Positions 6,857 through 40,859 of a DNA stretch of 64,000 nucleotides are shown piece by piece. How positions within the stretch are numbered: position 1 is the stretch's first letter; each line of letters opens with the position of its first letter. This stretch comes from Coriobacteriia bacterium. Its GTDB lineage: Bacteria; Actinomycetota; Coriobacteriia; Anaerosomatales; Anaerosomataceae. The stretch is taken from the NCBI GenBank assembly GCA_030651765.1, contig JAUSBY010000011.1, forward strand, positions 1 through 64,000, given 5' to 3'. A program made the translations under genes and the position numbers. The notes beneath the pieces were generated by a model. That model searched no databases. It was not told the origin of the DNA and saw nothing but the letters and a program-made list of their open reading frames with translations.

Positions 6857-6860
6857 GTGG

Positions 6861-7835: not shown

Positions 7836-7864
7836 CAGGCGGGTCCTCTCATCGGATACGGGCG

Positions 7865-8470: not shown

Positions 8471-8531
8471 GGGCCGAGCCTCCTCGGATGGTGTCTGCGC
8501 GTCCGAGCCGCGCATGCAGCCGAACCTGCTC

Positions 8532-8559: not shown

Positions 8560-8572
8560 GGGATGAAACCGC

Positions 8573-22049: not shown

Positions 22050-24773
22050 TTACTGCGCCGGCGTCACCGTCGTCTCCACCGCGGCGCCCGACAGACGTCC
22101 CAGGACGTCCCCGAGCTCCCCGATGAGGCGCCCGTAGGCCGCCCAGTCACCCGTACGCTGCGCCTCGAGGGCACGCTCGTAGAGCTCCAGCGCTGCTGCG
22201 GGATCGGCCGGGGCACCGCCGTCGGTCGCCGGCACCTCCACCTCACCGAACACGCGCAAGAGCGCGGCGGCGAGATCGGTCTCCATGGCGACGGTGTCGC
22301 CGTACGCCACGATCACGCGCGTCAACTGTGGCATGGCGGTTTGCTCGGCCTGCAGGTAGAGCGGCTGGATGTAGACGATCGCCTCCTCGATGGGAATCAC
22401 GAGCAGGTTGCCGAAGATGACGCCGCTCCCGCGCTGACTCCACAGCGTGAGTTGCTGCGAGATGATCGGATCCTGGTTGATGCGGGCCGAGACCTGCTCC
22501 GGTCCGAGCACGAGCCGTTGCTTGGGCAGCGTGTACACGACGCGGGCTCCGTAATCATCCGGATCGGACTTGGCGGCCATCCAGCCGATCATGTTCGCTT
22601 TTGTCCGCGGCGTGAACGGCAGCATCAGCATGAAGTCTTCGCGGTCCTCCTCGGGGAGCTCCATCAGCACGTAGAACGGATCCATCGGGACCCCGCCGCC
22701 CTCGGTTCCCTCGCCCGGCAACGCCCACTGGTCCTCCTTGTTATAGAAGACCTTCGGGTCGAGCATGTGGTACGTCTTGTAGACCTCGGCCTGGAGCATG
22801 AACAGATCGGCCGGGTAGCGCAGGTGCGCACGAACACTCTCCGGCATCTCGGATGCGTCGGTGAGCAGGTCAGGGAAGACCCGGCTCCACGCCTCCAGCA
22901 GCGGATCGTCCGGATCGAACGCATACAGCGTGGTCGTGCCGTCATACGCATCGACCGTCATCTTCACCGAGTTGCGGATGTAGTTCGCCCCGCCGTAGCG
23001 TTCCGAGTAGGGGTAGCGGTCGGAGACCGTGTACCCGTCGAGGATCCACACGATCCGGTCGTCGATGATCGCGGGATACGGGTCCCCATCGAAGGTGAGC
23101 CACGGCGCAAGCGCCTCGGCACGCTCGGTGATCGAACGGCGGAACAGCACCTGGCTGTCCGACCGGATGTACCGGCTGAACACGATCTGCGGAGCCGAGA
23201 ATCGCAGCGCGAACGCGGCACGACGCAGCGGTCCCCCGACCTCGATCCCGCCCTGACCGGCATAGGTCGTCTCGGCGTTCTCGGAGCCCACCGGGTAGTC
23301 GAACTCGGGCAGCTCGGTATTGGCGATGACGTAGTTGCCCACCTGCTCACCGAAGTAGATGGCCGGCTGGGCAACCTCAAGATCGGTGCCGGACTCGGGC
23401 GGGATGTCCTTGACGATGAAGAGCGGGTAGCCCTGTCCGCTCGTCTCGTTCACGGGGCTCACCACGATCCCGTAGCCGTGCGTGTAGACGAGATGCTGGT
23501 TGACCCACGTCTGTGCCTGGTCCGCCAGCCGGGCGACGTTCATCTCGCGGACCGACACGAGGACCTGCCGACGCACGCCATCGACCGTGTAGCGATCCAC
23601 GTCCACATCGTTGAAGTCGTAGTAGGGACGGATTCCCTGCAGCTGGCGATACGTCTGCACGACGATCGTGGGGTCCCACACACGCACGTTCCTGATCGTC
23701 TGGGTGTTGGCGGTGAGGTTCTCGGCGGTGAGGTTCTCCTCGGCCGGGAATGCCCTGACTTCGATGTCCTCGAGGCCGTAGGCCGCACGTGTCGCCGCGA
23801 TGTTCCGCTCGATGTACGGTGACTCGGCCTCTACCTCGTTGGGGGATACCCGGAACTGCTGGACGAGACCCGGGTACACGCCGCCGACGAGGATGGCCGC
23901 GCCGACCCACGCGCCGACCGCGACTACCGGAAGCCTCCAGCCGCGGAAGCGGATGTTGACGAGCAACGCGATGCCCGAGAGCAGCGCGATGACGATCAGG
24001 ATCGTGTACGCGGGGATCTGAGCGTTGACGTCGGTGAACGACGCACCCACGACCTGCCCGCGCGGCGAGTAGACGAGCTCGAAGATGCTGAGCCAGTAGC
24101 CGAGCGCCTGCACGACGACGACGAAGCCACCGACGACCGACAGGTGGGCCTTCACGTGGGGATCGAAGCCCCTCCAGCGGTCCCATGGCCTGATCGATCC
24201 GTTGAACACGTGTAGCGCGGCGCTGGCGATGAGTGTGAAGACGAGAGTCCCGGTGAGCCAGGCCTGCACCAGCCGAAGCGCAGGTAGCGTGAAGAAGTAG
24301 AATCCGATGTCCCGGCCGAACTGCGGATCGGTCGCGCCAAAGAGCCCGCCTGATGTGGCGAGAGCGAACACCTCCCACGACTCGGCCATGGCCGCGCCCG
24401 CCACAAGGGCAGCCACGCCGCTTGCGACGAGCAGGGCCGTCCCCGCGATCCGACCGACCGCGTCACGCACCCGGTCGATGGCCACCTCCACGGGAAGGCC
24501 CACGGTGCCCGCGGGTCGCAGCACTCGCACCGGCGTCATCTTCCGGGCGATGGTCAGGTTGCCAAGCAGGATCGCGAAGAAGACGAGCCCGAAGGCGACG
24601 CCGGTCCCCCACTGCCAGGCGAGCGTGCGCCAGAACACACCGGTCTGCCCGACCTCGCCATACCACAGCGCGTCGGTGTAGAACTCGGCGATCGCGCCCG
24701 AAGCGACCAGGAGCGCGGCGAGTGCGATCGCGGCGATGGTCGTGGGGCGTATCTTGCGGCGTGACTGCTCCAT
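22050..24773 (-). CDS. UPF0182 family membrane protein
   Basis: A 907-residue protein of the UPF0182 (COG1615) family, common in Actinomycetota and cyanobacteria. About seven membrane segments fill residues 1-310, followed by a large extracytoplasmic domain with the conserved SPNEVEAESPYIERNIAATR, YTHGYGIV, RFMLMLPFTP-like and VIPIEEAIVYIQPLY segments. A Pro/Glu-rich C-terminal tail ends the protein. A short repeat (ENLTAENLTA) comes from two 15-bp direct repeats at 23711-23740. Its function is unknown; a cell-surface role is likely. It starts 58 bp downstream of the HD-GYP gene in the same orientation. Confidence 0.88.
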   Translation of the reverse strand: MEQSRRKIRPTTIAAIALAALLVASGAIAEFYTDALWYGEVGQTGVFWRTLAWQWGTGVAFGLVFFAILLGNLTIARKMTPVRVLRPAGTVGLPVEVAIDRVRDAVGRIAGTALLVASGVAALVAGAAMAESWEVFALATSGGLFGATDPQFGRDIGFYFFTLPALRLVQAWLTGTLVFTLIASAALHVFNGSIRPWDRWRGFDPHVKAHLSVVGGFVVVVQALGYWLSIFELVYSPRGQVVGASFTDVNAQIPAYTILIVIALLSGIALLVNIRFRGWRLPVVAVGAWVGAAILVGGVYPGLVQQFRVSPNEVEAESPYIERNIAATRAAYGLEDIEVRAFPAEENLTAENLTANTQTIRNVRVWDPTIVVQTYRQLQGIRPYYDFNDVDVDRYTVDGVRRQVLVSVREMNVARLADQAQTWVNQHLVYTHGYGIVVSPVNETSGQGYPLFIVKDIPPESGTDLEVAQPAIYFGEQVGNYVIANTELPEFDYPVGSENAETTYAGQGGIEVGGPLRRAAFALRFSAPQIVFSRYIRSDSQVLFRRSITERAEALAPWLTFDGDPYPAIIDDRIVWILDGYTVSDRYPYSERYGGANYIRNSVKMTVDAYDGTTTLYAFDPDDPLLEAWSRVFPDLLTDASEMPESVRAHLRYPADLFMLQAEVYKTYHMLDPKVFYNKEDQWALPGEGTEGGGVPMDPFYVLMELPEEDREDFMLMLPFTPRTKANMIGWMAAKSDPDDYGARVVYTLPKQRLVLGPEQVSARINQDPIISQQLTLWSQRGSGVIFGNLLVIPIEEAIVYIQPLYLQAEQTAMPQLTRVIVAYGDTVAMETDLAAALLRVFGEVEVPATDGGAPADPAAALELYERALEAQRTGDWAAYGRLIGELGDVLGRLSGAAVETTVTPAQ

Positions 24774-24831: not shown

Positions 24832-26352
24832 CTAAAGGAAGTCGGCGATGTCCACGTTCAGACCGGCGGGATCGAGGCAGCGGAGCGCCGAGCGCCCGCC
24901 GCTGTCGGCGGTGATGCTGAGGTCGAGATCGACCGGCTCGATCATCGCTCCCGCGCTGTCCGCGATGATGCGCACGACAGGCCGGGCCGGATCCGATGGA
25001 CTCGGGCTGACCACGATCGCGGTCTCGCCCGTGCTCAGAAGCACCACCGAGCGCGGCGGGAAGTAGCCGAGCAGATCGACGAAGAGGCGCACGAGCGTCG
25101 GGTCGAGCGCGGTCCCGGCGTTGCGGACGACAACGCCCATCGCCTCGTCTTGCATGCGCGGTGCGCTATACGGGCGCTGCGAGGTCATAGCGTCGTAGGC
25201 GTCGGCCACCGCGACGATGCGGCTTGAGATGTGCTGCGCACGCTTGGGCTCGCGCTGCGGGTAGCCCGTCAGGTCGTACCGCATATGGTGCTCGAGAACA
25301 CACACGATCGATGCCCGGTCCAGACCGTTCGTAAGCGCGGTCATCTCGGCGCCGTGCACCGGATGGTGCCGGATATCCGCCCACTCGTCGCTGGTGAGCG
25401 GGCCCTCCTTGTTGAGCGTGGCCAGGTCGACGGACATCTTGCCGATATCGTGCAGCAGGGCGCCAACCCCGAGTGAGGACAGGAAGCGGTAGTCACGGGT
25501 GAGTTTGGAGCCCAGTGCCAGCGAGAGGATCGCGACGTTGACCGAGTGAAAGAACGTGTATTCGTCGAAGCTCTTGAGGCCGGAAAGTTCGAGCATCGCG
25601 AAACGATTGCGCAGGATGTTGTCCACGAGACTGCGCACCGTGCTCTTCACGTGGCCGGCGCTGATCATGTGATTGGAGCGGATCAGGCGCTCGAGCTCGC
25701 GGAGCAGATCGACCGCGCCGGTATACGTCGCCTTCGCGACCTGATCGCCGTCCCCCTCCGAAACGGTCACGTCGTCGCGAACGATGCTGACGGTGCTCAC
25801 CACGATGTGCGGCACGTTGGCGCGCTCCACGAGCGCCGACACGCCACCCTCGACAGACGCCACATCCTCGGCGCGCGCGCCGAGGACCGGGCCGAATCGC
25901 TCGATCTCGGCGGGCGTCACGTCACGCAGGAACGTTATGCTTCCGGCCCCGATCGCGCTGATGTCACGGATGAGCTGGTCGAACAGGACGCTGTCCTCGG
26001 CAAGCACCTGGCTGCCCAGTAGGACCTCTTCCTCGAAGAACGTCAGCGGCACGTCGGTGCCCTCGGCGTGGTAGAGCGCGAGGACATCGTGGAGCTCGCC
26101 TGCGGCCTCGCCCATCGCGGGGTGTCCCGGCGGGTAGAGGCGACACGCGCGACGGAGACTGTACAACCTCGTGAGTAGCTCCCGCGCCCGCGTCAGCTGC
26201 TTGGACGAGAACGTCTGCGTCCCGGACATGTCCTTCACTTCGGCGGTGATGCGCTCGATGTCGGACGCCGCGGCGGCGGCATCGTCCCTGTCACTGTGCG
26301 GCGTCCTGACTTCGGACTGATTCCCGGGGATGATGGGGTGCTCGTCGCTCAT
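24832..26352 (-). CDS. HD-GYP phosphodiesterase with YP-rich amino-terminal domain (module 1, protein B)
   Basis: A 506-residue soluble protein. Residues 50-185 form a domain shared with three other proteins in this window (CRLYPPGHPAM, then a GSQVL-type hairpin). Residues 245-435 are an HD-GYP domain with HSVNVA, LLHDIGK (near 300), HHPVHGAE, LEHHMRYDLTGYP and RIVAVADAYDAM. The GYP triad and metal-binding residues are intact, so c-di-GMP hydrolysis is plausible. A beta-rich tail follows. ATG 26352 overlaps the HEAT-protein stop by ATGA, so both are made together. Confidence 0.85.
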   Translation of the reverse strand: MSDEHPIIPGNQSEVRTPHSDRDDAAAAASDIERITAEVKDMSGTQTFSSKQLTRARELLTRLYSLRRACRLYPPGHPAMGEAAGELHDVLALYHAEGTDVPLTFFEEEVLLGSQVLAEDSVLFDQLIRDISAIGAGSITFLRDVTPAEIERFGPVLGARAEDVASVEGGVSALVERANVPHIVVSTVSIVRDDVTVSEGDGDQVAKATYTGAVDLLRELERLIRSNHMISAGHVKSTVRSLVDNILRNRFAMLELSGLKSFDEYTFFHSVNVAILSLALGSKLTRDYRFLSSLGVGALLHDIGKMSVDLATLNKEGPLTSDEWADIRHHPVHGAEMTALTNGLDRASIVCVLEHHMRYDLTGYPQREPKRAQHISSRIVAVADAYDAMTSQRPYSAPRMQDEAMGVVVRNAGTALDPTLVRLFVDLLGYFPPRSVVLLSTGETAIVVSPSPSDPARPVVRIIADSAGAMIEPVDLDLSITADSGGRSALRCLDPAGLNVDIADFL

Positions 26353-28508
26353 GCTCCACCTCCCGCCTTCAGGGCACGGTGCAAGCCCGCAAGCGCCGTC
26401 TCGGCAGCAGTGCGCAGTTCGCGCGATCTGCCGGTCCGAATGATGCCACGCTGACGGATGATGTCGTTGAGCACCGCCTCCGCCTCGGGATTGCCGAGTC
26501 GGCCGAGCGCCTCGATCGCCTCGATGCGGGCACCCACTTCGCGGTTGCCGCGACCCTCGCCGCGCGCCGCCTGCGAGAGCGCCGCGAGGGCCCCACCCGT
26601 GCCGAGCGTGCCGAGCAGCCGTGCCGCGAGGCCCACGTTCTGCGCGTCCTCGTCGGCGAGCGCCGCGATGAGCATCTCACCGGCAAGGCGGTCACGTATC
26701 CCGGCAACGGCCCTGATCGTCTCACGACGCACGCGGGAGTCGCTGTGACGCAGCGTGCGCGCGAGGTGAGGCACCGCATCGGGACGGCGTGTCGAGCCCA
26801 GAATGGCGACGACGTTGCGCACGAAGTACCACCGGGGATCCGCCACACGCGCGCCGAGCGTGCTGATGTGCCGGGGTGCTATAGACGAGACCAGGTCGAC
26901 GAGCGCCTTGCGAGCCGCCATGTCCGGCTCGTCGGCCAGCACCTCGAGCAGCGGGCTGATCGTGTGCTCGCCCAGTGTGTTGAGCAGCCTCTTGCACGCC
27001 TCGTGCTCGACCGTGCCGGCATCGTGCCGCCTGAGCGCGGCCGTCAGCTCTCGCATGTGTCGTGGTCGAGCCATCGTGACAAGAGCGTCGTGCACGCGTT
27101 GGCGCTGCGCGGGTTCGAGCGTCTCATCTTCCAGGAGCGCGGCAAACGCACCGGCAGCGTCGGCAGCATCCTCGTACTCGCCCCACTCCAGCAACAGGCC
27201 GAGTCCGTCCTCCACGATCGCCATGAGGGACGTGAACATCTCGGGACGGCGCTCGATCGAGATGAGCGTGACGATGCCGAGCATGATGTCGCCGTCGGAG
27301 ATGCCGACGGCGACCTCGGCCCGCACCGCAGCCACGTCGTCGCCTTCGGCCTCGGCCGCCACGGGAGCGAGGTCGACCAGCCGCAGAACGTTCTCCACGC
27401 TCTCGACCCGCTCATCGGCGGGAGGCAATGCGCCCAGCCGCGCTGGCGCCGCGTTCTCCAGGACCGTTGCGATGGTCGACTCGTCGGCACCGGCCCGGCG
27501 CATGGCGTCTTCGGCAGCGCCAAGGACCTCCTCCTTGGGCCGCAAGGTGATCACGGCGAGGTTCCGGATGGCCCGAGACAGGCCGTCTCTCGAGACCGGG
27601 TCGGGACTCATGCCCTCGACGAGCGCGTTGCACAGCTCGCTTAGCTCGAACTGCCTGAGCACGCTTGCCACCGACTCGTCGAGCCGCGCGTCGGGCAGCA
27701 ACCGCTCGACGAGCACGTCGCGACGGACGTCCGGATCGAGTGAGAGCAGGCTCTCCGCAATCGACCTGAACAGCGCGGGCTGGTCCTCGGACAGCTCGCC
27801 GTACGCTATGTGCGCAAGCGACACGACCCTCCCGGCGATCAGCCTGGTAAGCGGACGACCACCGCGGCCCGACGCGGCAAGATCGCCCAGGTAGCGCGAG
27901 ACCAGGCGCGGGTTCTGCACGAACCGCACGAGGATCCGCTGGTCGCGCGGCCGAGCGCCGTAGGCCGACTCGACGAGCTCGTCGATCCGCTCGTGCGCCG
28001 GCGGCCACTCCTCATCCGGGATGGCAGGATCGCTCTCGGGGATCAGCTCGGTGTCTACGATCTTCGTGGCGACGAGGCTCACGCTGATCCCGTCCACCTG
28101 CAGATCCCACAGGCGCTGCTCGAAACCACCGGAGGCCTGGATCTCCTCGGCAGACTCCTGCAAGACACGCAGGAACCCGACGACCTGCTTCGGGGTCACC
28201 GAAGCGTGGAAGCGCACGTCGGCAAGCGACCGATGATAGAACTCGCGCGCAAAGGACTCGAATACCTTTTGCCCCGGCAGTACCGGAAGCGCACCGTACA
28301 ACAGCCCGGTCTTCGCTACCTGGAACTTCAACTCCGAGCGCTCCCGAAGCAGCCCGCGCAGCATGCCGATCAGAACCGCGGCATTCTCGAGAGGAATGTC
28401 GCTCGCGGCAGGATAGAGCTGCACCGCCTTGTACGTGACGAGAAGATGCTTGACGAAGCGTTCAACAGCCTCGGGTGCCTTCTCGGGTTTGGACTCGCCT
28501 GTGTACAT
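26349..28508 (-). CDS. HEAT-repeat protein with YP-rich amino-terminal domain (module 1, protein A)
   Basis: The 719 residues have an amino-terminal domain of about 150 residues with LLVTYKAVQLYPAASDIPLE, the segment that recurs in all four module proteins. A long all-helical body follows, whose last 250 residues are clear HEAT/armadillo repeats (VRRETIRAVAGI, AIEALGRLGNPEAEAVL). The end, IIRQRGIIRTGRSREL, is mirrored in the second module. There is no catalytic motif; a scaffold for the coupled HD-GYP enzyme is the best guess. ATG 28508 is chosen over 28535 because AGGAAG lies upstream and the conserved part begins there. Confidence 0.75.
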   Translation of the reverse strand: MYTGESKPEKAPEAVERFVKHLLVTYKAVQLYPAASDIPLENAAVLIGMLRGLLRERSELKFQVAKTGLLYGALPVLPGQKVFESFAREFYHRSLADVRFHASVTPKQVVGFLRVLQESAEEIQASGGFEQRLWDLQVDGISVSLVATKIVDTELIPESDPAIPDEEWPPAHERIDELVESAYGARPRDQRILVRFVQNPRLVSRYLGDLAASGRGGRPLTRLIAGRVVSLAHIAYGELSEDQPALFRSIAESLLSLDPDVRRDVLVERLLPDARLDESVASVLRQFELSELCNALVEGMSPDPVSRDGLSRAIRNLAVITLRPKEEVLGAAEDAMRRAGADESTIATVLENAAPARLGALPPADERVESVENVLRLVDLAPVAAEAEGDDVAAVRAEVAVGISDGDIMLGIVTLISIERRPEMFTSLMAIVEDGLGLLLEWGEYEDAADAAGAFAALLEDETLEPAQRQRVHDALVTMARPRHMRELTAALRRHDAGTVEHEACKRLLNTLGEHTISPLLEVLADEPDMAARKALVDLVSSIAPRHISTLGARVADPRWYFVRNVVAILGSTRRPDAVPHLARTLRHSDSRVRRETIRAVAGIRDRLAGEMLIAALADEDAQNVGLAARLLGTLGTGGALAALSQAARGEGRGNREVGARIEAIEALGRLGNPEAEAVLNDIIRQRGIIRTGRSRELRTAAETALAGLHRALKAGGGA

Positions 28509-28569
28509 CGACTCACTTCCTGCAGCGGAGCGCACGCCATCAATTATGCCGCTTACGCGCGGCCGGTGC

Positions 28570-28575
28570 TATCAT
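28570..28575 (+). promoter_or_regulatory. Extended -10 element close to the maf start
   Basis: TGCTATCAT (extended -10, TATCAT at 28570-28575) ends 8 bp before ATG 28584. Transcription would start within a few bases of the start codon, implying a leaderless maf mRNA. There is no ribosome site upstream of the ATG and no clear -35 box. Confidence 0.4.
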
Positions 28576-28583
28576 CGCTGACC

Positions 28584-29258
28584 ATGGACGCTCCCTTCGT
28601 GCTTCTCGCGTCGGCGTCTCCCCGGCGCCGCCGGCTCATCGAATGGCTCGGGCTCGGCATCGGTGTCATGTCGGTCGACACCCCCGAGGATCTCGGCGCG
28701 CCGCTCGAGCCCGGCCCGCTCGCTGCGTCGCTCGCCGCCGAGAAGGCGCTGGCCGCCCGGGCGGTGTCCGGTGACGGACCGCTGATCCTCGCATTCGACA
28801 CCGTCGTGGTCTCGGACGGCATCGTGCTCGGCAAACCGGCCAACGAGGCCGACGCCCGCCGCATGCTCGGCAGCCTTGCCGGCCGCACGCACGAGGTCGT
28901 GACCGGCGTGGCGCTCCTCCCTGACGGCGCGACCGCTCCGGATACCTTCGTCACGACCACCCGGGTCGCGATGCGCGCGCTCGACGACGCGACGACGGAC
29001 GCGTGGATCGCCCGGGGTGAGTACCTGGGGTGCGCCGGCGCCTACAACATCGAACACCATCTCGCCAGCGTGGCCGATGACGAGTGTTTCCAGAATGTGG
29101 CAGGCTTGCCTCTGTGCCACCTGTACGCCGAACTGGCCTCCGGTCGCGCCGGTACGATCCCCCAGGGGCTCGTCGTGCCGATTCGTGCGTGCGACGCGGC
29201 GCTCGACCGCCGCTGCCTGCTCGGGCCGCGGGTATGCGGAATCGGGCCCCGAATCTAG
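28584..29258 (+). CDS. maf: Maf/YceF-like nucleoside triphosphate pyrophosphatase
   Basis: The 224 residues match Maf house-cleaning pyrophosphatases, which hydrolyse non-canonical or m7G-type nucleotides to monophosphates. Seen are the amino-terminal LLASASPRRRRLIEWLG, AFDTVVVSDGIVLGKP (catalytic Asp) and, near the end, GEYLGCAGAYNIEH and NVAGLPLCHLYAEL. The usual SPRR-downstream Asp-Glu pair is degenerate. About 30 extra residues follow the family end. The gene overlaps the convergent methyltransferase by 4 bp and is divergent from the HEAT gene. Confidence 0.85.
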   Translation: MDAPFVLLASASPRRRRLIEWLGLGIGVMSVDTPEDLGAPLEPGPLAASLAAEKALAARAVSGDGPLILAFDTVVVSDGIVLGKPANEADARRMLGSLAGRTHEVVTGVALLPDGATAPDTFVTTTRVAMRALDDATTDAWIARGEYLGCAGAYNIEHHLASVADDECFQNVAGLPLCHLYAELASGRAGTIPQGLVVPIRACDAALDRRCLLGPRVCGIGPRI

Positions 29259-30088
29259 CGCAGGGCCTTCACGGCCACCACGATGATGCTCTCGTCGGAA
29301 TCCGCTTCCAGCAGGCGTCCCGTGTGATCGCCGAGGACACGCACGTCTGCGAAGCCGGCGCTCTCGAGTTCACGCGTGATCATCTCGGGCACCATGGCGA
29401 AGTGCAGCGATCGGCGCGACCGCACACTCCAGCCGCCGGACGGATCCGCCTCGAGCGTCGTGGGCCAGCTCTCGATCGTGTGCTCGCCCTCCCGCACGCT
29501 GGCATCGCGAACAAGGGTGACGAAGTCGAACAGGACGCCGTCGCCCTCCGGGGTGTAGTCGAGCAGACGCAGGAAGAACTTGTCGCCGGCGGACGTCTGT
29601 CTGAACACCGGCGACATCGTGCGGATCCGCTGCGTGATGAGCCGGTGATGGTTGAGGTAGTGCAGCACGAGCAGCCCGCCCGGAACGAGCGCTTCGGCGA
29701 AGTCCCGCAGCGCATCATGGAGTCCCCGCAGCGAGCGCACGTGCGGGAGCGCATTGCCGGTGCAGGTGATGGCGTCCACCGGTGCGCCGACGATGCGCGC
29801 GACGTCGCCGAAGCTGCCCTCGACGATGCGGACGTCACTTCCCAGCCGCCGGGCGTTCTCGCGCGCCAGCTCGAGCATGTCCTCGCTCGGATCGATCGCC
29901 CAGACGTCGAGGCCCCACGAGCGGTACAAGATAGCGTGGCGTGCACTGCCGGCTCCCACGTCCGCCACCGACCGCACGTCGTAGCCGGCGAAGAGCCCCT
30001 CGAGAAACGGCGCTTCGCGCGCGAGACGGCGGTCCCAGTCGACGAGCTCATCGTATTCGCGCTCGTCGTTGTGTCGCGTCCAGCTCAT
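29255..30088 (-). CDS. Class I SAM-dependent methyltransferase
   Basis: The 277 residues have a Rossmann-type methyltransferase core: motif I VADVGAGSARHA, acidic loop VWAIDPSEDML, motif II region ITCTGNALPHV and post-motif LLVLHYLNHH. The C-terminal half is a beta-rich lid. The substrate is unknown; small-molecule or lipid targets are common for this shape. It starts with ATG 12 bp after the amidohydrolase gene and is probably cotranscribed with it. Confidence 0.8.
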   Translation of the reverse strand: MSWTRHNDEREYDELVDWDRRLAREAPFLEGLFAGYDVRSVADVGAGSARHAILYRSWGLDVWAIDPSEDMLELARENARRLGSDVRIVEGSFGDVARIVGAPVDAITCTGNALPHVRSLRGLHDALRDFAEALVPGGLLVLHYLNHHRLITQRIRTMSPVFRQTSAGDKFFLRLLDYTPEGDGVLFDFVTLVRDASVREGEHTIESWPTTLEADPSGGWSVRSRRSLHFAMVPEMITRELESAGFADVRVLGDHTGRLLEADSDESIIVVAVKALR

Positions 30089-30100
30089 CGCCGCCCCTCC

Positions 30101-31042
30101 TTAGACGTCCAGGCGGAAGATCCGCACGGCGTTGGCACGAAGCACACGATCGCGATCGTGATCGGAGAGGCCGAGTTCCTCGAGCGTTCGACGCTGCTGG
30201 AATGCGATCCACTTCCGGTACGGTCCCGTGGTGCCCGAGTCGGTGCCGAAGAGCACCCGTTCCGGACCGAGCGCGGTCAGAGCCCGATCGAAGACCTGCG
30301 CCAGCGTGTAACCGTGCGGATCGTAGTCCATCCAGTTGTTAGTGCCCGACGAATCCAGACACACGTTCTTGCACTGATAGCCGACACGCAGCGCCTCGTG
30401 CAGGTATCCCGCGCCGAAGTGCGCGATGACGAACGTGATCTCCGGGAAGTCGCGAGCCACGGGCGAAAGGTCGGTGGGGTCCGCATAGCGCAGGTCGCCC
30501 TGCGGGTCGACCGTCACTCCGTAATGGACCGTGATCGCGGCACCGAGCTCGGCGGCCTTCTCGAAGAACGGACGGCATGCCGGGTCCGAGAGCCTGAAGC
30601 AGCGGTTCACCGGCAGCAGCTTCACTCCCTTGAAACCCGCAGCCATCTCTCGCTCGAGCAGCGCCGGCGCGTCGGGCAGCCGTGGGTCGAGATTGCACAA
30701 CGCCGCGACGCGTCCTTGGGAGGCGTTGATGAAATCGCGCATGTACTGCGAGTCGGGCAGCACCGAGACCACAACCGCGCGTGCGATGTCCGCGTCATCG
30801 AGGCGCCGAGCGTACCACTCGGCCATCTTCTCCGGTCCGAGGTCTGGCAGAGCCTCCTGGCGACGGCCGAACGTGCCCTCCTCGAGCGCCTTCTTCCACC
30901 GGGGGTTCGCCTCGGGATTCTTGTCGACGAACTCGCGGAACAGCGGAAGCGCGAACAGATGGACGTGCGCGTCGATCACGTCACCGGGAACGGTGCCACG
31001 CCCCTCAACGTTCTTGGGTGCACCACCGCTTCCGAGGCTCAC
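30101..31042 (-). CDS. Amidohydrolase-2 family metal-dependent hydrolase
   Basis: A 313-residue TIM-barrel hydrolase or decarboxylase: the amino-terminal metal motif DAHVHLF, KGVKLLPVNRCF, TVHYG, FVIAHFGAGY (metal His) and LFGTDSG (catalytic Asp). The ACMSD-like family includes decarboxylases and lactonases; the substrate is not evident. It starts at GTG 31042, overlapping the PspC gene stop by GTGA, which links it to an otherwise envelope-related group. Confidence 0.82.
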   Translation of the reverse strand: MSLGSGGAPKNVEGRGTVPGDVIDAHVHLFALPLFREFVDKNPEANPRWKKALEEGTFGRRQEALPDLGPEKMAEWYARRLDDADIARAVVVSVLPDSQYMRDFINASQGRVAALCNLDPRLPDAPALLEREMAAGFKGVKLLPVNRCFRLSDPACRPFFEKAAELGAAITVHYGVTVDPQGDLRYADPTDLSPVARDFPEITFVIAHFGAGYLHEALRVGYQCKNVCLDSSGTNNWMDYDPHGYTLAQVFDRALTALGPERVLFGTDSGTTGPYRKWIAFQQRRTLEELGLSDHDRDRVLRANAVRIFRLDV

Positions 31043-31596
31043 CGGTCCGCGCTGGTCTCATCCACCGGCGCAGGGGGTTCGGGCGCGGGTCCGGGCGACT
31101 CGGGGACCTGTGACTGCGGCCAGGCCACGGGTGCCGCGGGCACAGCCGCCACGCCCTTGGGCGCCTGCGGTACGACGATAGCCAACACGATGTAGGCAGC
31201 GATAAGGCCGCCGACGTCGAACAGCACGACGAGCGCGATGAACGCGAGCCGCAGGAGCGTGACATCCACGCCGAAGTAGTCTGCAAGCCCGCCGAGCACT
31301 CCCGCGAGCCACTTGTCGTCGCGGGAGCGGTAGAGCCTGGTCCCGCGCTTCGGCGTGCTGAAGCCCCTACCCGACTGCGACCACCAGATGAGCACCACGC
31401 CGATGAGCACGATCCCTATGCCGACCCGTGCCTTGACGATGAAGTCCCACATGTAGCCGAGGGGCCACGGGACGATCCCGAGATTTCGGGCGCCCAGGAA
31501 GAAACCCGCTGCGATCAGCACGGCCCCAAGAATGACCCAGCCGGTCGAATCGTGGTCGCCCGTAGGGTTCGTCTGCTGGTGCTGGTCCTCTGTCAC
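31039..31596 (-). CDS. PspC-domain membrane protein
   Basis: The 185 residues have two membrane segments in the first half, then a PspC domain (LYRSRDDKWLAGVLGGLADY, followed by FGVDVTLLRLAF and a further membrane pair) and a Pro-rich tail. PspC proteins sense envelope stress. It is 9 bp downstream of the LiaF-like gene, a pairing common in Gram-positive envelope-stress systems. Confidence 0.85.
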   Translation of the reverse strand: MTEDQHQQTNPTGDHDSTGWVILGAVLIAAGFFLGARNLGIVPWPLGYMWDFIVKARVGIGIVLIGVVLIWWSQSGRGFSTPKRGTRLYRSRDDKWLAGVLGGLADYFGVDVTLLRLAFIALVVLFDVGGLIAAYIVLAIVVPQAPKGVAAVPAAPVAWPQSQVPESPGPAPEPPAPVDETSADR

Positions 31597-31605
31597 GATG
31601 ACCTC

Positions 31606-32793
31606 CTAGTAGTATTCGAGAGTGATACTGCCGATACCTGACTCGACATCGATGTCCCAGTAGGCGCCCGACGTCCGGAAACCGTCGCTCTCATAGGTCC
31701 GGGTGTCGCCGTCACGGCCGCTCTTCCACTCACCACGTGCGGTCACACCCGACAGACCCTGGCTGACGTTCACACGGACGCTGTCCCCCTCGGGAACCCG
31801 CAGCGTCAACGCGGAGACGCCCGCCTTGACGCGCACGTCCACGGGACCACGCAGACCCGATGCCGCCGCCTCGCCGAACGTGAGCCGGCCCTCCGAGACC
31901 CCGGCGTCGAAGGTCACGGCTTCGACGGCCAGGTCCCGCAGGTCCACGTCGTAACTCGAGACACCCGCCTCGACCGTCAGATCCCACACGACATCGGAGT
32001 CCAGCGTCACATCGAGCCGCGTGTCCCCGACACCGGGCATCCACGTCCCACTGCCGAGTCCGGCGCTCACGAGCGCGTGAGAACGGTCGATCGTCACGTC
32101 GAACTCAGGCGTGAACGGCGAGCGACCCGATGCGGTGACCAGGTCGTCACCGGCCGTGAGCTTGAGCACCCCGACGCCACCCTTGATGACAGCCGTGCCC
32201 TCGGTGACCTGCGCGTCGTGCGGAGCCTCGCCCGAGAATGTCTCGGCTGCTCCACTCACGGGCACGAGAAACGACCACCCGGCCGTCGGCGTCATCGCGA
32301 GTGCGCCGTACGCAAGCCCGGCGATCACCACGAAACTGCCGAGGGTGCGGATCCCCTCGGACTTCATGCCCTTGCCCGCGATCTCAAGACCGAGCGCTAC
32401 GAGCAGCAGCGGCCACAGACGGAAGATGTTGAGCCACGCGTTCCAGCCTATGTAGCCGAGCATCTGCCCGAGGAAGATCAGGCCGATAGTGACGGTCGTG
32501 AGCCCCTCGGCGGCATCCTTGACAGACCATCTCCCGGTGCCGGTGCCGAACATCGATCTGACACCGAACACGACGATGATGAGTGGCCAGTAGCGCCAGA
32601 TGGCGATCCCCGGCACGAACTGGTTGATGAGCAGGAGACCGCCGAGTGCGACCAGTGCCGCTCCCCACAGCACCGCTCCACGCCGAACGCGAGCGGCCGG
32701 TGCCGCGGCCACTGGTGGCGGTGAAGTATCCGGCGCGGCGGCCGGTATCGGCGGCTCTGTGGGCGCAAACGGCACCCCGTTGTGTTCCGTCAT
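31606..32793 (-). CDS. LiaF-like membrane protein with beta-helical extracytoplasmic domain
   Basis: The 395 residues have a Pro/Ala-rich amino tail and four membrane segments (about 38-175, with RYWPLIIVVFGV and RLWPLLLVALGL repeats typical of LiaF/DUF5668). A C-terminal repetitive beta domain follows (VSSYDVDLRDLAVEAVTFDA, VKAGVSALTLRVPEG). LiaF-like proteins restrain LiaRS-type envelope responses. ATG 32793 has CAGGAG five bases upstream. No LiaRS pair lies in the window; the PspC gene is next. Confidence 0.78.
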   Translation of the reverse strand: MTEHNGVPFAPTEPPIPAAAPDTSPPPVAAAPAARVRRGAVLWGAALVALGGLLLINQFVPGIAIWRYWPLIIVVFGVRSMFGTGTGRWSVKDAAEGLTTVTIGLIFLGQMLGYIGWNAWLNIFRLWPLLLVALGLEIAGKGMKSEGIRTLGSFVVIAGLAYGALAMTPTAGWSFLVPVSGAAETFSGEAPHDAQVTEGTAVIKGGVGVLKLTAGDDLVTASGRSPFTPEFDVTIDRSHALVSAGLGSGTWMPGVGDTRLDVTLDSDVVWDLTVEAGVSSYDVDLRDLAVEAVTFDAGVSEGRLTFGEAAASGLRGPVDVRVKAGVSALTLRVPEGDSVRVNVSQGLSGVTARGEWKSGRDGDTRTYESDGFRTSGAYWDIDVESGIGSITLEYY

Positions 32794-32838
32794 CGCGACT
32801 CCTGTTGTTCGGGCGGACAGCACACCCCGCGCTGGACG

Positions 32839-34164
32839 TCAGTCGGACGCCGTCGTATTCGCTCCGTCGGCGCCCATCGTCCTAGATACCCGAAGTCGGG
32901 CGATCCTTCTCCGCCTGACGACATCGACCCGCACGACGAGGTCGTGGTAGAGCACGGTCTCACCCTCGGACGGGATATGACCGAGCTCGACGAGGACCCA
33001 TCCGGCGACGGTCTCGTACTCATCGGAGAACGGCAGGTCCCATCCGAGCGTCTCGTTGGCCTCGTGAACCGAGAGCAAACCATCTACGACCCACTCGTCC
33101 GGACCGAGCGAAGTGATGTACCGGCGCTCGCGGTCGAACTCATCGGCGATCTCCCCGATGATCTCCTCCACGATGTCCTCGATGGTGGCCAGACCAGCCG
33201 TGCCCCCGTACTCGTCGACCACGATCGCGAGGTGGTTGTGCGCCCGCTGCATGTCGTTGAGCATCGCCAGGATCGGCTTCGTCTCGGGAACGAAGACAGC
33301 CGGTCTCACGAAGACCGCGACCGGCTCGTCCATCAGGCCCTCGGAGGCCGGGCCGACCAGGTCTTTGAGCATCGCGATCCCGACGATGGAGTCGGCGTCC
33401 TCCCCGAAGACCGGAAGCCGCGAGTACCCGGACGTACGGAATGTCTCGATCGCCTCACGCAACGGCGTGGAGTCCTGGAGCATCAGCATGTCGACGCGCG
33501 GGACCATGATCTCCTTGGCCACCATGTCGCCAAGCTCGAATATCTCGTGGATCATGCGCTTCTCGTCTTCGAGCAGCGTGCCCTGCTCGGTGACGAGCAG
33601 CTTGATCTCCTCCTCGGTTACGCCCGGACGGACCGAGCCCGGACGTACGCCGAGAAGCCGTGCGGCCGCATTCGTGGAGTGCGCGAGGACCCAGATGAGC
33701 GGTGCGGTAAGGCGCTGCAGGAGCGTGACCGGTCCCGAGACGGCCTTGGCGACCTTCTCGGCGCTCTGCAGTCCGAGCCGCTTGGGCGCGAGCTCCCCGA
33801 ACACGAGCGTCACGTACGAGATGACGAGCGTCACGAGGAACACCGCGAGCCCTGACGCGATCGAACTCACCCACGTCACGCCTAGCGTGCCAAGCCACCG
33901 GGCCACCGGTTCCGCGAGCGTGACGGCGGCGGTGGCCGAAGCTCCGAAGCCCACCAGCGTGATGCCGACCTGGATAGCCGCCAGGAACCGCGACGGGTCC
34001 TCGGTCAGCCGCAGGACGGCCCGCGCACGGGTTGAGCCGGCATCAGCTTCCATCTTGATCGCAGCGCGGCGCGCGCTCACGAGCGCGATCTCGGCGGCGG
34101 CCAGATAGCCGTTGGCCACGATCAGGACGATGACGAGCAGTATCTGTGCGGTGAGCCCATTCAT
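32839..34164 (-). CDS. CorC/HlyC/CNNM-family transporter-associated protein
   Basis: The 441 residues match the CNNM/CorB (DUF21) family. A three- or four-helix DUF21 membrane domain (residues 1-190, with VGFGASATAAVTLAEPVA and VFGELAPKRLG) precedes a CBS pair (about 205-330, MVPRVDMLML and VDEYGGTAGLATIEDI) and a C-terminal CorC_HlyC domain (WVVDGLLSV). CNNM proteins move or regulate Mg2+. ATG 34164; the longer upstream frame has no conserved content. It is divergent from the second HEAT-repeat gene. Confidence 0.9.
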   Translation of the reverse strand: MNGLTAQILLVIVLIVANGYLAAAEIALVSARRAAIKMEADAGSTRARAVLRLTEDPSRFLAAIQVGITLVGFGASATAAVTLAEPVARWLGTLGVTWVSSIASGLAVFLVTLVISYVTLVFGELAPKRLGLQSAEKVAKAVSGPVTLLQRLTAPLIWVLAHSTNAAARLLGVRPGSVRPGVTEEEIKLLVTEQGTLLEDEKRMIHEIFELGDMVAKEIMVPRVDMLMLQDSTPLREAIETFRTSGYSRLPVFGEDADSIVGIAMLKDLVGPASEGLMDEPVAVFVRPAVFVPETKPILAMLNDMQRAHNHLAIVVDEYGGTAGLATIEDIVEEIIGEIADEFDRERRYITSLGPDEWVVDGLLSVHEANETLGWDLPFSDEYETVAGWVLVELGHIPSEGETVLYHDLVVRVDVVRRRRIARLRVSRTMGADGANTTASD

Positions 34165-34270
34165 GCCGATAAGGGTAGCAGGAAGCGGGCGGTATGGTGC
34201 GGTGCTGGTGGACGGACACCGGACGTTCGCCGAGAATCGAGCACGACACCGAACCGGGGGTGATTCCTGG

Positions 34271-36250
34271 ATGGCGCCCGATGCAGAGACGACGCGTGCG
34301 GCGGAGGCGGTGGTACGTGCCCTGACCACGGCCGCCAAGACACTGCGCCTGTATCCCGCAGCCAGCCCGATCCCCCTCCAGGCGATGCAAGCCGCATCTG
34401 AGGCCCTCGGCGGGGTTCTGGCCACCGAGTCGTCAGTGTCCCTCATCGTCGCGCGCGACGGCTTCACGTACCGGGGCGAGCGCATCGCCACACCGGGAGC
34501 GAGCGACCTGGCGGAGCTGCTCACCGCACACGAGGTCGCCGGGGTAGACCTCGTTCCCGGCTGCTCCACACACGACCTATCCACCTTCCTTACGACCCTG
34601 CTGCGCGACCCGGCCGACGTCCGCGCGGAAGGCGGCTTCTCGGCGGCTCTGGCGTACGGCGGGGTCAGCTCCATCTCGATCTCCGAGGTCGTGCTTACCG
34701 CTGCGGCCACCGAGATGCCGGACGACGTGGACGTGGACGAGTTCTTGCGGGAGCTCGCCACAGACGAGGCGCGGCTTGCCGCATGGCTTGCGGCCGCCGC
34801 TGCTGGTGATCCGGCCATGCTCGCCGACGGACTGGCCGAACTCGCCCGGGCTGCGGGACCGGAGGGGGCCGCCGCGCTCGCCCGCGCACTCGGCGGAGCA
34901 TTCCTCGGACAGGAGACCGCGAGCAGGGACACGCTCGTCGGGCTTGCGCTCGACGAGACGGACGGCACACCCGTACTTCGGGAGATGCTGCATACGCTGC
35001 AGCCACACGACTTCGCAGCGTCAGTTGCTGACGGGCTGTACGCCAACAACATGCTCTCCATGTCCAACGTCCTCGCGTCGCTGCCACACCCCTCGGTGCT
35101 CGAGGCGATCATCGACGAGATCAGGCCCATGCTTGCCGAAGGCGGACATAGCGACCGCGAGCTCGTGTTCCTCGGCCACATGATCGACGTGCGCGCTGCC
35201 GACGAAGCCGAGTCCGCCCTGGCCGACCGGCAACCCGACTACCGCACCGTCGCGGCGCTCAGCCGCGTGAACGAAGACGACCTCGCGCCCGCGCGCGAGG
35301 AGTTGCGCACCTCGGATGCGACCGTGCATGCGCGTACCGTCAACACGATGGTGTCGCTCCTCGACCAGCAGCAGGACTTCGCCCTGTGGTCGAGGACACT
35401 GGCCGCGCTCGCATCGGTCGTACCGCGCCTGCTGACTCACGGGGATCTGGAACTTGCCGAACGAGTGCTGACCGATCTGGTGACCCGCGAGTCACGCACG
35501 ACCCACCCGTGGCCGGGCCTTGCGGACCACATGCAGCGTGCACTCGATCTGGCCACGTCATCCGAGGCGATGCGCGCGCTCATCGGCGCCGTACTCGACG
35601 ACCCCGCCGCCGCCCCTCGCGCCCGGAGCATCCTCGGCCATGCAAGCGTTGCGGCGCAGCAGCGACTCGTGACCGAGGCCCTCGGCGCGCGGGACCGCGA
35701 CGGGCTCGCGGCAGCCGAGGTGTTGCTCGGGCGACGCCTCATCGACCTGCTGGTGAGTCGCGCCTCCGAGCTGCAGTGGTTCCAGATCGCCGAGGTAGCC
35801 CGCAGGCTCGCAGCCGAGTCAGACCCCCGTTCGAAAGAAGCGCTCTCGGCACTCGCCGCGAGGCCGGATGACCGCTCGCGCCTCGAGGTCGCGAAGGGGC
35901 TGGCCGACACCGCGACCGGGGAATCGGTGGAGATCCTCGCCGCACTGGCGGGAGACCCCGTCCCGGAGATCGCCGTGACGGCGGTGCGGTCTCTCGAGCG
36001 TCACGCGACGCCAGGCGCCGCACGGGCGCTCGGCGGGGTGTTCGAGCGCCTAGATGCCGACGGGAAGGATTTCCCGGTCGCCCGCGAGATCGTCGCCGCG
36101 CTGGGCCGCACCGGCTCGGATGCGGCGGCCGAGGTCCTGGAGCGCATCGCCGGCCGACGGACCCTGATCAGGCGCGGCCACTTCACCGAACTCCACAACC
36201 TTGCGACCGGCGCTCTCGCCTCGCGCCCGAAAGGGGGCGACGACCGGTGA
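34271..36250 (+). CDS. HEAT-like helical repeat protein with YP-rich amino-terminal domain (module 2, protein A)
   Basis: The 659 residues share their plan with the first-module protein A: an amino-terminal domain with LTTAAKTLRLYPAASPIPLQ, then a GFTYRGERI hairpin and a GGFSAALAYGGVSSISISEV segment. A helical repeat body follows, with a HEAT-like C-terminal part (VPEIAVTAVRSLERHATPGA) ending IAGRRTLIRRGHFTEL, close to the other copy. No catalytic motif is visible. ATG 34271 follows GGGGGTG at eight bases. Its stop overlaps the HD-GYP start by GTGA. Confidence 0.75.
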   Translation: MAPDAETTRAAEAVVRALTTAAKTLRLYPAASPIPLQAMQAASEALGGVLATESSVSLIVARDGFTYRGERIATPGASDLAELLTAHEVAGVDLVPGCSTHDLSTFLTTLLRDPADVRAEGGFSAALAYGGVSSISISEVVLTAAATEMPDDVDVDEFLRELATDEARLAAWLAAAAAGDPAMLADGLAELARAAGPEGAAALARALGGAFLGQETASRDTLVGLALDETDGTPVLREMLHTLQPHDFAASVADGLYANNMLSMSNVLASLPHPSVLEAIIDEIRPMLAEGGHSDRELVFLGHMIDVRAADEAESALADRQPDYRTVAALSRVNEDDLAPAREELRTSDATVHARTVNTMVSLLDQQQDFALWSRTLAALASVVPRLLTHGDLELAERVLTDLVTRESRTTHPWPGLADHMQRALDLATSSEAMRALIGAVLDDPAAAPRARSILGHASVAAQQRLVTEALGARDRDGLAAAEVLLGRRLIDLLVSRASELQWFQIAEVARRLAAESDPRSKEALSALAARPDDRSRLEVAKGLADTATGESVEILAALAGDPVPEIAVTAVRSLERHATPGAARALGGVFERLDADGKDFPVAREIVAALGRTGSDAAAEVLERIAGRRTLIRRGHFTELHNLATGALASRPKGGDDR

Positions 36251-37569
36251 GTGAGCAGCGCGCCGTCGCGCTCGTGACCGCGCTCTCCGGCGCGCGCAAG
36301 GCGTTCAGCCTGTACCCACCGCAGCATCCGGAGCACCGCGGAGCGCTCGAAGCGCTCCTGCGTGCGGTCCTCGAGGCGACGGCCGACGGACCGTTCGCGC
36401 TCAACCTGCACCTCGGTCGCCTGTATCAGGAAAGCCGCGTGCTTCCCGCTGACTCACCGGGTCTCAAGTCGACCGCGAGTTCGCTTGAGGGGCACCGCAT
36501 CGAGAGCCTCACGTTCCATCCGTCGTTCACCGAGAGCGACGCGATCGTGCTCCTCGAAGTGCTGGCTCGCAGACCGTCTCCTGACCTGGACGCAGCCACG
36601 CTGCTCGAGGAACGCGGGGTCGTCGGTGTCGTCGCCCGCCGTCTGGAAGAGGGTGCCGCCGAGGAGACCGCGGAACGCGAGGAGCATCGTGTGCGCGACC
36701 GCGCGCTGCACCGGCGTCTGGCCGGCGCACTCAGGCAGGTGACGTCGCAGGTCGGTCCCTCGGGGTCGCCTGACATGGGTGAGGCGAGCGTCGTCGTCGA
36801 GGACATCCTCAACAGGCTCATGGAGGACAACGCCGCCGTCCTCGGACTCGCAACGCTGCATGACGACGGCGAGTCCGACCTGTTCCACGCGATCTCCACG
36901 ATGATCTACGCGCTCACGATAGGCCTCGGGCTGGGGATACCGCCCGAGGGCCTCACGTCACTCGGGCTGTCGGCTCTGCTGCACGACATCGGCAAGATGG
37001 CCTTTGACCGCAGCGACCCGGCTGAGCGAGAGCGCGCACGCGTGCTGCATCCGCGCATCGGAGCGGAGATACTGGCCCGGATCCCCAACGTCGATCAGGC
37101 GGCCATGCTCGTGGCTCACGAGCACCATATGAAGCCAGGAGGTGGCGGCTGGCCCGAGGCGGAGCCCGACTACGTCGCACACCCGTACAGTCGCATGGTG
37201 GCGATCGCGGACCGCTACGACCGCCTGATCACCGACGGTCCCAACGGCTTCGGTCTCACCCCGGATCGCGCGATCGTCCAGCTGCTCCGCGAGACGAACG
37301 ACGCCCTCGACCGGACCTTCACGCGGGTCTTCGTCCGGGAGATGGGCGCATTCCCCGTCGGCTGCCTCGTTCGTCTCTCGGATCTGTCGGTCGGTGTGGT
37401 GAGTGCGCCTGGTGAGGATCCGCTGCAACCACGTGTCCGGCTCGTCTACGGTGCAGACGGGCTGACGCTCGAGGAGCACAGGGACACCGATCTCGCCGGG
37501 TCGGATCTGAGCATCATGGAAGTCGTGCAGCCAGCCGACCTCGCCGAGACGGTCTCGGATCACCTCTAG
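36247..37569 (+). CDS. Degenerate HD-GYP protein with YP-rich amino-terminal domain (module 2, protein B)
   Basis: The 440 residues begin with the shared domain (SGARKAFSLYPPQHPEHRGA, then LNLHLGRLYQESRVLP). An HD-GYP-type domain follows (about 190-390): DLFHAISTMIYA, LLHDIGKMAF (His246), LHPRIGAEIL, AHEHHMKPGGGGWPEA and MVAIADRYDRL. The GYP triad reads GWP and the preceding DGxGYP loop is glycine-rich, so c-di-GMP hydrolysis may be lost or changed while the HD metal site remains. A beta-rich tail follows, as in module 1. GTG start, coupled to the HEAT gene. Confidence 0.82.
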   Translation: MSEQRAVALVTALSGARKAFSLYPPQHPEHRGALEALLRAVLEATADGPFALNLHLGRLYQESRVLPADSPGLKSTASSLEGHRIESLTFHPSFTESDAIVLLEVLARRPSPDLDAATLLEERGVVGVVARRLEEGAAEETAEREEHRVRDRALHRRLAGALRQVTSQVGPSGSPDMGEASVVVEDILNRLMEDNAAVLGLATLHDDGESDLFHAISTMIYALTIGLGLGIPPEGLTSLGLSALLHDIGKMAFDRSDPAERERARVLHPRIGAEILARIPNVDQAAMLVAHEHHMKPGGGGWPEAEPDYVAHPYSRMVAIADRYDRLITDGPNGFGLTPDRAIVQLLRETNDALDRTFTRVFVREMGAFPVGCLVRLSDLSVGVVSAPGEDPLQPRVRLVYGADGLTLEEHRDTDLAGSDLSIMEVVQPADLAETVSDHL

Positions 37570-39676: not shown

Positions 39677-39974
39677 CACGACTCCAGGAGTAGGCCTTTC
39701 GCCCTCGGGACTCGGCGCACGAACGATGCTTAACTCTACCGTTATCCCCCCGTGTCTACCACCCGCCGATGAGCACGGACCGCCGACCCGGGCCGTCAGG
39801 TTCGCTCAGGCTTGCCAGTGTTCGTGATTTCGGCGCATCGGAGTGGCATACTCATGCCGATATCGATACTCACTCACGAACTTCGAGGGGACGAGGGTCG
39901 GTACAGGCGTCAGACGTTTGCGGGGGCGCGTCTGCGCGCACGGGGATCGGCGAGCACCACGGGAGGCGTCACTG
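39677..39974. other. Divergent intergenic region between trhA and the GGDEF-antiporter operon
   Basis: No gene is evident in these 298 bp. On the plus strand an extended -10 (TGGCATACT, 39845-39852) with a weak GTGATT box 17 bp upstream (39824-39829) may drive the antiporter operon. GGCAT-ACTC-ATGCC (39845-39858) is a perfect inverted repeat lying over that -10, followed by ATATCGATA; it could be an operator. No riboswitch core was recognised. Confidence 0.4.
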
Positions 39975-40859
39975 ATGCGCGAAGTGACCCCTGCCGACGA
40001 CGACGCGCGCACCTCGCACCGGAAGCCCACGCTACTGAGCGCACTGCTCGTCGCTGGCGGAATAGCGTTCGTGTCCGTCCTTATCCTCTCAACGGGTCGG
40101 CTTTCGCCTGCCTGGATCCTCTACCTCCTGCCGGTCATCCTTGCCTCCCTGCTTGCAGACGTCCCGGGCGGGATCGTCGCGGCGGCCCTTTCCGCTATGG
40201 CGGTCGTCCTCGTAGCATCCCCCTCGGAGCTCTCTGCCCTGTGGCTGGAACTGCTAACCGGACTCTCGGCCTTCGTTTTGTGCGGGATCGTCGTCGGCAT
40301 CCAGGCGAGACGTCAACGCACGCACGCCCAAGCGCTCGAACGCGTCTCGACCCGAGATCCGGTCACGGGGGTGCGCAAGGCCGAATCGTTCTACGCGCGG
40401 CTCAACGAGGAGATGCGGCGTTCGGACCGGTACGGCAGCGACGTGGGTGTGGTGCTCGCCCGGGTCGAGGACATCGACGAGTTCTCCCGCACCTTCGGGC
40501 GCTACAAGACGGACCTGATGCTCGAGCATCTTGCAGACATCATGCGTCTAAGCGCACGGGACACGGACATCATGGGCCGCGTAGGACCCGAGACCTTCGC
40601 GCTCGCCATCCCGCACGCGGACCCCGCGGCCGCCGAGACAGTAGCACGTCGCGTAGCGGCTGCGTCGGCGGCGGCGGAGTTCGAGGGTGACGCGCTTGAG
40701 CCGGCCACCCACTGTCGCGTCTCCGTGACCTCGGTCAGCTATCCCGCCGACGCCGGCGACGTGCCCGGACTCCTGTCCACAGCCTCAACCCGGCTCGCTC
40801 CCGAGGCCGAGCGCGTGCAGGAGGCTCGGCTACCGGGACCTGGCGAGGTGATCGCATGA
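39975..40859 (+). CDS. Membrane-anchored protein with degenerate GGDEF domain
   Basis: The 294 residues have three or four membrane segments (about 18-110, LLSALLVAGGIAFVSVLIL onward) and a C-terminal GGDEF-type domain (about 130-260): DPVTGVRKAESFYARLNEEM, VVLARVEDIDEFSRTFGRYK and, at the active site, RVGPETFAL. The signature GGDEF therefore reads GPETF, so diguanylate cyclase activity is unlikely; GTP or c-di-GMP sensing, or protein contact, is more likely. ATG 39975 has GGGAGG upstream. The MrpE-like gene overlaps its stop (ATGA), tying it to the antiporter. Confidence 0.8.
   Translation: MREVTPADDDARTSHRKPTLLSALLVAGGIAFVSVLILSTGRLSPAWILYLLPVILASLLADVPGGIVAAALSAMAVVLVASPSELSALWLELLTGLSAFVLCGIVVGIQARRQRTHAQALERVSTRDPVTGVRKAESFYARLNEEMRRSDRYGSDVGVVLARVEDIDEFSRTFGRYKTDLMLEHLADIMRLSARDTDIMGRVGPETFALAIPHADPAAAETVARRVAAASAAAEFEGDALEPATHCRVSVTSVSYPADAGDVPGLLSTASTRLAPEAERVQEARLPGPGEVIA

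Follow-up and report, generated by a model that had tools for sequence, protein, structure and literature searches.

Within the window, a stretch of 64,000 nucleotides from the genome of a Coriobacteriia bacterium (contig JAUSBY010000011.1), two gene pairs each encode a HEAT-repeat protein (A) followed by an HD-GYP protein (B), and all four proteins carry homologous versions of an N-terminal domain of ~150 residues common to A and B, for which we use the name LYP domain. On balance, we lean towards a model in which LYP domains connect the HEAT scaffold with the HD-GYP enzyme; pair 1 would be catalytic, and pairs 2 and 3 derived and probably non-hydrolysing. An earlier note on this DNA had described the two pairs of the window (Table 1); their coordinates, common gene order and 4-bp overlaps (ATGA and GTGA) were re-checked and are as it claimed. 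Its count of two holds inside the window, while a third pair (A3-B3), situated outside the window on contig C10 of the same genome, had been missed. A profile search of this genome recovered exactly six LYP domains, all of them within the three A-B pairs.

Table 1. Positions of the A-B gene pairs and their domains; coordinates refer to the window except for the third pair
Feature	Position	Strand	Basis
A1: LYP domain + two-part alpha-solenoid (HEAT) protein, 719 aa	26349..28508	(-)	ORF; HEAT_2 E 8.6e-14; AF2
LYP domain of A1, motif QLYPAAS	28044..28493	(-)	profile match E 8.5e-46; hhalign
A1 alpha-solenoid, two segments, residues 172-353 + 390-714	26367..27995	(-)	AF2 secondary structure
ATGA stop/start overlap A1-B1, GGAGGTGGAGC just before	26349..26352	(-)	
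B1: LYP domain + HD-GYP domain + C-terminal segment, 506 aa, catalytic residues all kept	24832..26352	(-)	
LYP domain of B1, motif RLYPPGH	25765..26214	(-)	profile match E 1.1e-46; AF2 pLDDT 93.0
HD-GYP domain of B1: DEYTFFH, HDIGK, EHH, GYP, DAYDAMTSQRPY	25063..25575	(-)	phmmer to 5z7c/4mcw; residue table
A2: LYP domain + HEAT-like protein, 659 aa	34271..36250	(+)	ORF, domain scan, hhalign
LYP domain of A2, motif RLYPAAS	34274..34723	(+)	profile match E 3.0e-42
GTGA start/stop overlap A2-B2	36247..36250	(+)	
B2: LYP domain + HD-GYP-like domain, 440 aa	36247..37569	(+)	ORF, Pfam, residue table
LYP domain of B2, motif SLYPPQH	36247..36684	(+)	profile match E 1.0e-37
HD-GYP-like domain of B2	36859..37356	(+)	PF01966 E 6.8e-12; residue table
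Third A-B pair (A3-B3), locus L039	contig C10 of the same genome, about 5917-9317		

The LYP domain and the proposed HEAT scaffold

Single-sequence comparisons by blastp relate the LYP N-domains to one another (two-sequence E-values of 5e-14 for A1/A2, 3e-6 for B1/B2, 2e-6 for A1/B1 and 4e-8 for A2/B2). Profiles of the A1, A2, A3, B1, B2 and B3 families match in 15/15 pairs with hhalign probabilities of 95.0-99.9% over 124-142 columns, as against at most 21.4% when N-domain profiles were compared with the C-terminal regions of the same proteins. Measured against these controls, the profile comparison rules out chance likeness, and the LYP domains of all four window proteins are homologous; the earlier note had proposed as much from the LYPxxxP motif, and had staked its proposal on this point. 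Over the N-terminal 150 residues of A1, B1, A2 and B2, nothing convincing was found in Pfam or NCBIfam, and among 103 LYP-domain relatives compared with Pfam-A and NCBIfam no family matched more than one member (isolated best E 8e-4).

The AlphaFold2 (AF2) model of the B1 LYP domain (pLDDT 93.0, pTM 0.84) has the element order H-H-E-E-H-H-E-H-H-H-E and places the LYP motif between helices 1 and 2, and the N-terminus of A1 in the full-length AF2 model has nearly the same order, with one middle helix fewer. Comparison of this fold with the PDB gave nothing convincing (Foldseek best E 0.65; VIA best Z 4.1), by which a new fold is not proven, and the same was true of a viral model library. A FliS-like fold was considered and set aside, its best Z of 4.1 being too weak to trust, and a sequence search of solved structures for the LYP domain yielded weak matches only, with E 0.004 for a designed protein and about 1 for ERCC-1.

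Behind the LYP domain, the A proteins continue as helical repeat proteins. HEAT_2 scores 52.0 bits in A1 and 25.5 bits in A2, respectively above and just below the Pfam cut-off of 27.7, and the C-terminal parts of the two proteins are homologous (99.4%, hhalign), a result that covers the matching IRxGRxxEL-type tail to which the earlier note had drawn attention. In the full-length AF2 model of A1 (mean pLDDT 89.7), the LYP domain is followed by a flexible linker and then by a two-segment helical solenoid, the relative placement of these domains not being defined at a pTM of 0.52. A D-x-R-W-Y-x-V-R-N element is conserved in the solenoid near residues 557-565, and across 51 sequences W560 is invariant and R533, D557, R594 and E596 are near-invariant.

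We propose that the two proteins of each pair make up one c-di-GMP signalling unit, in which A would serve as an alpha-solenoid scaffold and B as an HD-GYP phosphodiesterase. LYP domains would bring A and B together, possibly along with other LYP-domain proteins, and A would control or position c-di-GMP hydrolysis by B and hand the result on to a target; the contact between A and B through the LYP domain, the identity of the substrate as c-di-GMP and the direction of regulation are points that we infer. That the LYP domain mediates assembly had been suggested before, and the suggestion draws indirect support from the coupling of the genes, the co-duplication of the pairs and the presence of LYP domains on GGDEF and PilZ proteins (see below). 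Mean-field DCA between the A and B LYP domains (217 pairs, Neff 188) is uninformative in this respect: it gave no interaction signal, and since pairs within the domain were not prominent either, the test was without power.

The main rival to the assembly model takes the LYP domain for an independent ligand- or signal-sensing input, through which A and B, encoded in one operon, would answer a common cue without having to form a complex. Like many sensor domains, the LYP domain is compact, folds with high model confidence and invariably precedes the effector part of A and of B; its occurrence in single proteins lacking a B partner, together with the silence of the powerless DCA, would suit this reading as well. 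Set against it are the co-duplication of A and B as a unit and a systematic difference between the two families at the residue after the LYP motif, which is mostly S in A (LYPxxS) and mostly H in B (LYPxxH). This difference fits a heterotypic contact without proving one, and a shared sensor would still be compatible with both observations; we nevertheless regard the sensor explanation as unlikely, and retain assembly through the LYP domain as the working model.

Active sites of the HD-GYP proteins

Both B1 and B2 score above the Pfam cut-offs for HD and HD_5. The catalytic residues of PmGH and the effects of alanine changes at these positions are listed in PMC4159591, and the PmGH numbering is used here. 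B1 has the metal ligands H189, H221, D222, H250, H276, H277 and D305, as do 30/30 B1 orthologues, and the sole metal ligand that is changed is E185, replaced by Y as in the Y/F subfamily (PMC4159591). D183, K225, D308, GYP and R314 are also kept by B1 and are the same in the 30 orthologues except for one D183 change, the GYP motif reading YDLTGYP in B1 and being kept in 30/30. Among B relatives from other classes and phyla, the metal histidines, the HD dyad, the GYP tyrosine and R314 are kept in 44/44.

The other two B proteins of this genome depart from this pattern in different ways. The window copy of B2 has its metal ligands, reads GWP instead of GYP, carries G at the D183 equivalent and has lost the R314 equivalent; across the B2 family, D183 is lost in 21/22 members, Y285 is Y in 8/22 only and R314 is not conserved. 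D183 is essential in PmGH, and changes of GYP and of R314 are tolerated singly (PMC4159591); because the latter alone are tolerated, B2 is probably, though not certainly, inactive as a hydrolase. In B3, H221 of the HD dyad is Y (YD for HD) in 10/10 genomes, with the remaining metal ligands, GYP and R314 retained. The H221A change abolishes PmGH activity (PMC4159591), and for this reason B3 is very likely inactive as a hydrolase; it could bind without cutting.

Given that the B copies differ in predicted catalytic state, the label phosphodiesterase is safe for B1 alone, and by sequence only. The earlier equation of HD-GYP with phosphodiesterase is thus a safe prediction for B1, whose residues are intact, and an unsafe one for B2, with its eroded substrate site, and for B3, with its lost metal ligand; the reading of B2 as a plain HD-GYP protein had overlooked its eroded GYP. 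In the model proposed here, pair 1 would be the catalytically competent unit, as predicted from its residues, and pairs 2 and 3 would have specialised after whole-pair duplication, B2 by losing substrate-site residues while keeping its metal ligands, B3 by losing the HD histidine while keeping its substrate contacts. B2 and B3 would then probably sense c-di-GMP without hydrolysing it, or serve as competing subunits.

The substrate assigned to B also has to be weighed. Among PDB entries, B1 is matched best by V-cGAP3, a phosphodiesterase of 3'3'-cGAMP (5z7c; phmmer E 1e-18), with PmGH behind it, and at the position equivalent to K317, which contacts guanine in PmGH, 30/30 B1 proteins carry S, as might be expected if B acted on another cyclic dinucleotide (e.g. 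3'3'-cGAMP) or another phosphoester and the pair were not a c-di-GMP module. However, B1, B3 and the 44/44 others have all retained R314, 11 GGDEF domains are encoded in the genome, and the same LYP domain is found on GGDEF and PilZ proteins. We consider a different substrate improbable and continue with c-di-GMP.

Duplication and spread of the pairs

In the order to which the genome belongs, A1 matches with E below 1e-50 in 59/61 relatives, the other two being fragmented assemblies with weak matches. The 30 loci sampled from the order share an arrangement of UPF0182, B1, A1, methyltransferase, amidohydrolase, PspC, LiaF-like, CorC-like and divergent A2-B2 genes, with single members of the UPF0182-B1-A1...CorC-A2-B2 block absent from some of them. 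Pair 1 is near-universal, and pair 2 is absent in some relatives (e.g. L077 and L078). UPF0182, a large uncharacterised membrane protein (window 22050-24773), comes directly after B1 in 30/30 sampled loci of the order. A GGDEF protein is encoded at window positions 39843-40859, just past pair 2 and after USP and HlyIII genes, and its neighbourhood is retained in the nearest relatives (L040, L078). The third pair is flanked in relatives by a conserved block of M78 peptidase, ROK kinase, DUF362 ferredoxin and RsmI genes, and also by a two-component system.

The A tree and the B tree both resolve three monophyletic pair families and group pair 2 with pair 3 as sisters (support 0.98 in either tree); the node of pair 1 in the B tree is weakly supported (0.23). 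The agreement of the A and B trees indicates that the pairs were duplicated as whole units, and from this phylogenetic standpoint pairs 2 and 3 are the products of duplication of a whole pair. The notion that two copies form a regulated pair had to be dropped, as there are three pairs in the genome, pair 2 is patchy in relatives and the predicted catalytic states differ.

Beyond the order, 84,980 named species genomes were scanned with a motif from the solenoid of A, with B absent from the query, and 80 loci were obtained. B lies directly downstream on the same strand of 91/96 A genes in these loci, in 39 cases with the exact 4-bp overlap; the remaining five, as far as visible, lie at the end of a contig or in open frames that are broken or overlap. 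The loci belong to Actinomycetota, Deltaproteobacteria (Syntrophaceae, Desulfuromonadaceae), Nitrospirota, Zixibacteria, Armatimonadota, Acidobacteriota and the 'ANGP1' group, and the A-B pair is present in at least six phyla. The side-by-side conservation that the earlier note had made its other touchstone is thus observed, A and B being syntenic across the order and in other phyla. Additionally, domain searches found the LYP domain in 61/396 genomes of the window's phylum, in 75/118 sampled Nitrospirota genomes and in 66/148 sampled genomes of the Deltaproteobacteria-type phylum (that of the Desulfuromonadaceae locus), and 77/80 further loci from Nitrospirota and Deltaproteobacteria, preselected as paired domain hits, hold A then B. 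The scan of named species genomes and the searches of Actinomycetota, Deltaproteobacteria and Nitrospirota rule out a lineage-specific oddity.

This distribution bears on a simpler explanation, namely plain co-transcription of two unrelated regulators whose N-domain likeness dates from an old domain shuffle and entails no present coupling. The neighbours of the pair do vary between phyla, as this explanation would allow, but the pairing itself persists in at least six phyla amid differing surroundings, in which genes without a link would have come apart, and whole pairs have been duplicated together at least twice. Such fortuitous co-transcription appears to us very improbable, and a functional coupling of A with B is the reading that we carry forward.

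When loci were compared across the order and phyla, no conserved neighbour revealing the output was found, and neighbours recur within clades only: UPF0182 and CorC in the order, and HPF-SecA-RF2, TatA/TatC and Rrf2-NifU elsewhere. In an Acidimicrobiia-type clade (L225, L229, L233, L146, L148), the pair adjoins SecA and release factor 2 genes with a ribosome-hibernation (HPF) gene upstream, and the A protein of L146/L148 is without a LYP domain. The pair comes after TatA and TatC genes in several Nitrospirota (L217, L218, L222-L224, L228), and two A-B pairs stand in direct tandem in an Armatimonadetes locus (L212, 2458-9606). A bacterial-looking pair was also recovered on a 6-kb contig (L189, MTNE01000161.1) binned as Thermoplasmatales archaeon JdFR-43, and is probably mis-binned.

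The LYP domain beyond the pairs and in relation to known systems

The LYP domain also occurs in other architectures. Proteins of ~1,200-1,450 residues with the order GGDEF-STAND(AAA_16)-LYP(-LYP)-HEAT, GGDEF being N-terminal, are encoded in Actinomycetota and in the Deltaproteobacteria-type phylum (loci L234-L238, L241, L248 and L125), and no description of them was found in the open literature. Most of these proteins have AGDEF at the GGDEF site; AGDEF sites can be active. Other LYP-HEAT proteins end in cNMP-binding and PilZ domains (L239 80-4456, L240 4014-8999, L247 3920-6676) and could possibly be the read-out arm of the same system; no PilZ domain is detectable in the window's own genome. 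With LYP on GGDEF and PilZ proteins and alongside HD-GYP, the domain meets makers, breakers and readers of c-di-GMP, and this architecture, to judge from domain composition, links it to c-di-GMP more firmly than HD-GYP pairing alone. Finally, long LYP-HEAT proteins of about 760-1,200 aa with no adjoining HD-GYP partner are found in other Actinomycetota (L118, L119, L124, L130-L136, L138, L139, L142, L143, L150, L151), and hence the LYP domain works outside the pair too.

The LYP domain stands a fair chance of marking a signalling platform in its own right. More tentatively, and with less confidence than in the pairing model itself, we suggest that it may be a broadly distributed assembly domain defining a separate c-di-GMP platform, in which GGDEF/STAND synthesis, HD-GYP breakdown and cNMP/PilZ read-out would be recruited onto HEAT scaffolds, the duplicated pairs supplying inactive receptor versions of the enzyme in the window's lineage, in a genome without a detectable PilZ receptor. 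A gene pair whose signature domain reaches more than half of the sampled Nitrospirota and nearly half of the sampled Deltaproteobacteria-type genomes is without a name or a domain model. If the LYP domain is indeed an assembly point, it would explain the wiring of local c-di-GMP circuits in many uncultured subsurface and metal-cycling bacteria. The predicted series B1, B2 and B3 constitutes a clean natural experiment on the conversion of an enzyme into a receptor.

HD-GYP enzymes and HEAT scaffolds are already known. In the openly accessible journal literature, no description was found of the LYP domain, of the arrangement of A and B as a pair, of how widely it is spread or of its use with makers, breakers and readers, and this accords with the earlier remark that no system with such a layout is known to have been described. 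In common with the HD-GYP phosphodiesterases PmGH (4mcw), V-cGAP3 (5z7c) and Bd1817 (3tm8), B1 has the HD dyad, the metal histidines, D305/D308, GYP and R314, and it shares with the Y/F subfamily (PMC4159591) the tyrosine in place of E185. Unlike these enzymes, B has a LYP domain in front and is encoded behind a LYP-HEAT partner, and the sites of B2 and B3 are altered. C-terminally, A resembles the HEAT/PBS-lyase repeat proteins (NblB, CpcE/F) in its HEAT_2 repeats, the matches of A to the NCBIfam models for NblB, CpcE and CpcF being weak and far below cut-off; A differs from these proteins in its long N-terminal LYP extension, its D-x-R-W-Y-x-V-R-N element and its lack of a phycobilisome context. 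Trigger phosphodiesterases are placed as a class of c-di-GMP effectors in the abstract of PMC5052742, and neither a LYP domain nor a HEAT partner or gene pair was found reported for them. What they would have in common with the A-B pairs, in a comparison of function only, is the concept of a c-di-GMP-degrading enzyme that also steers its partners through protein contacts.
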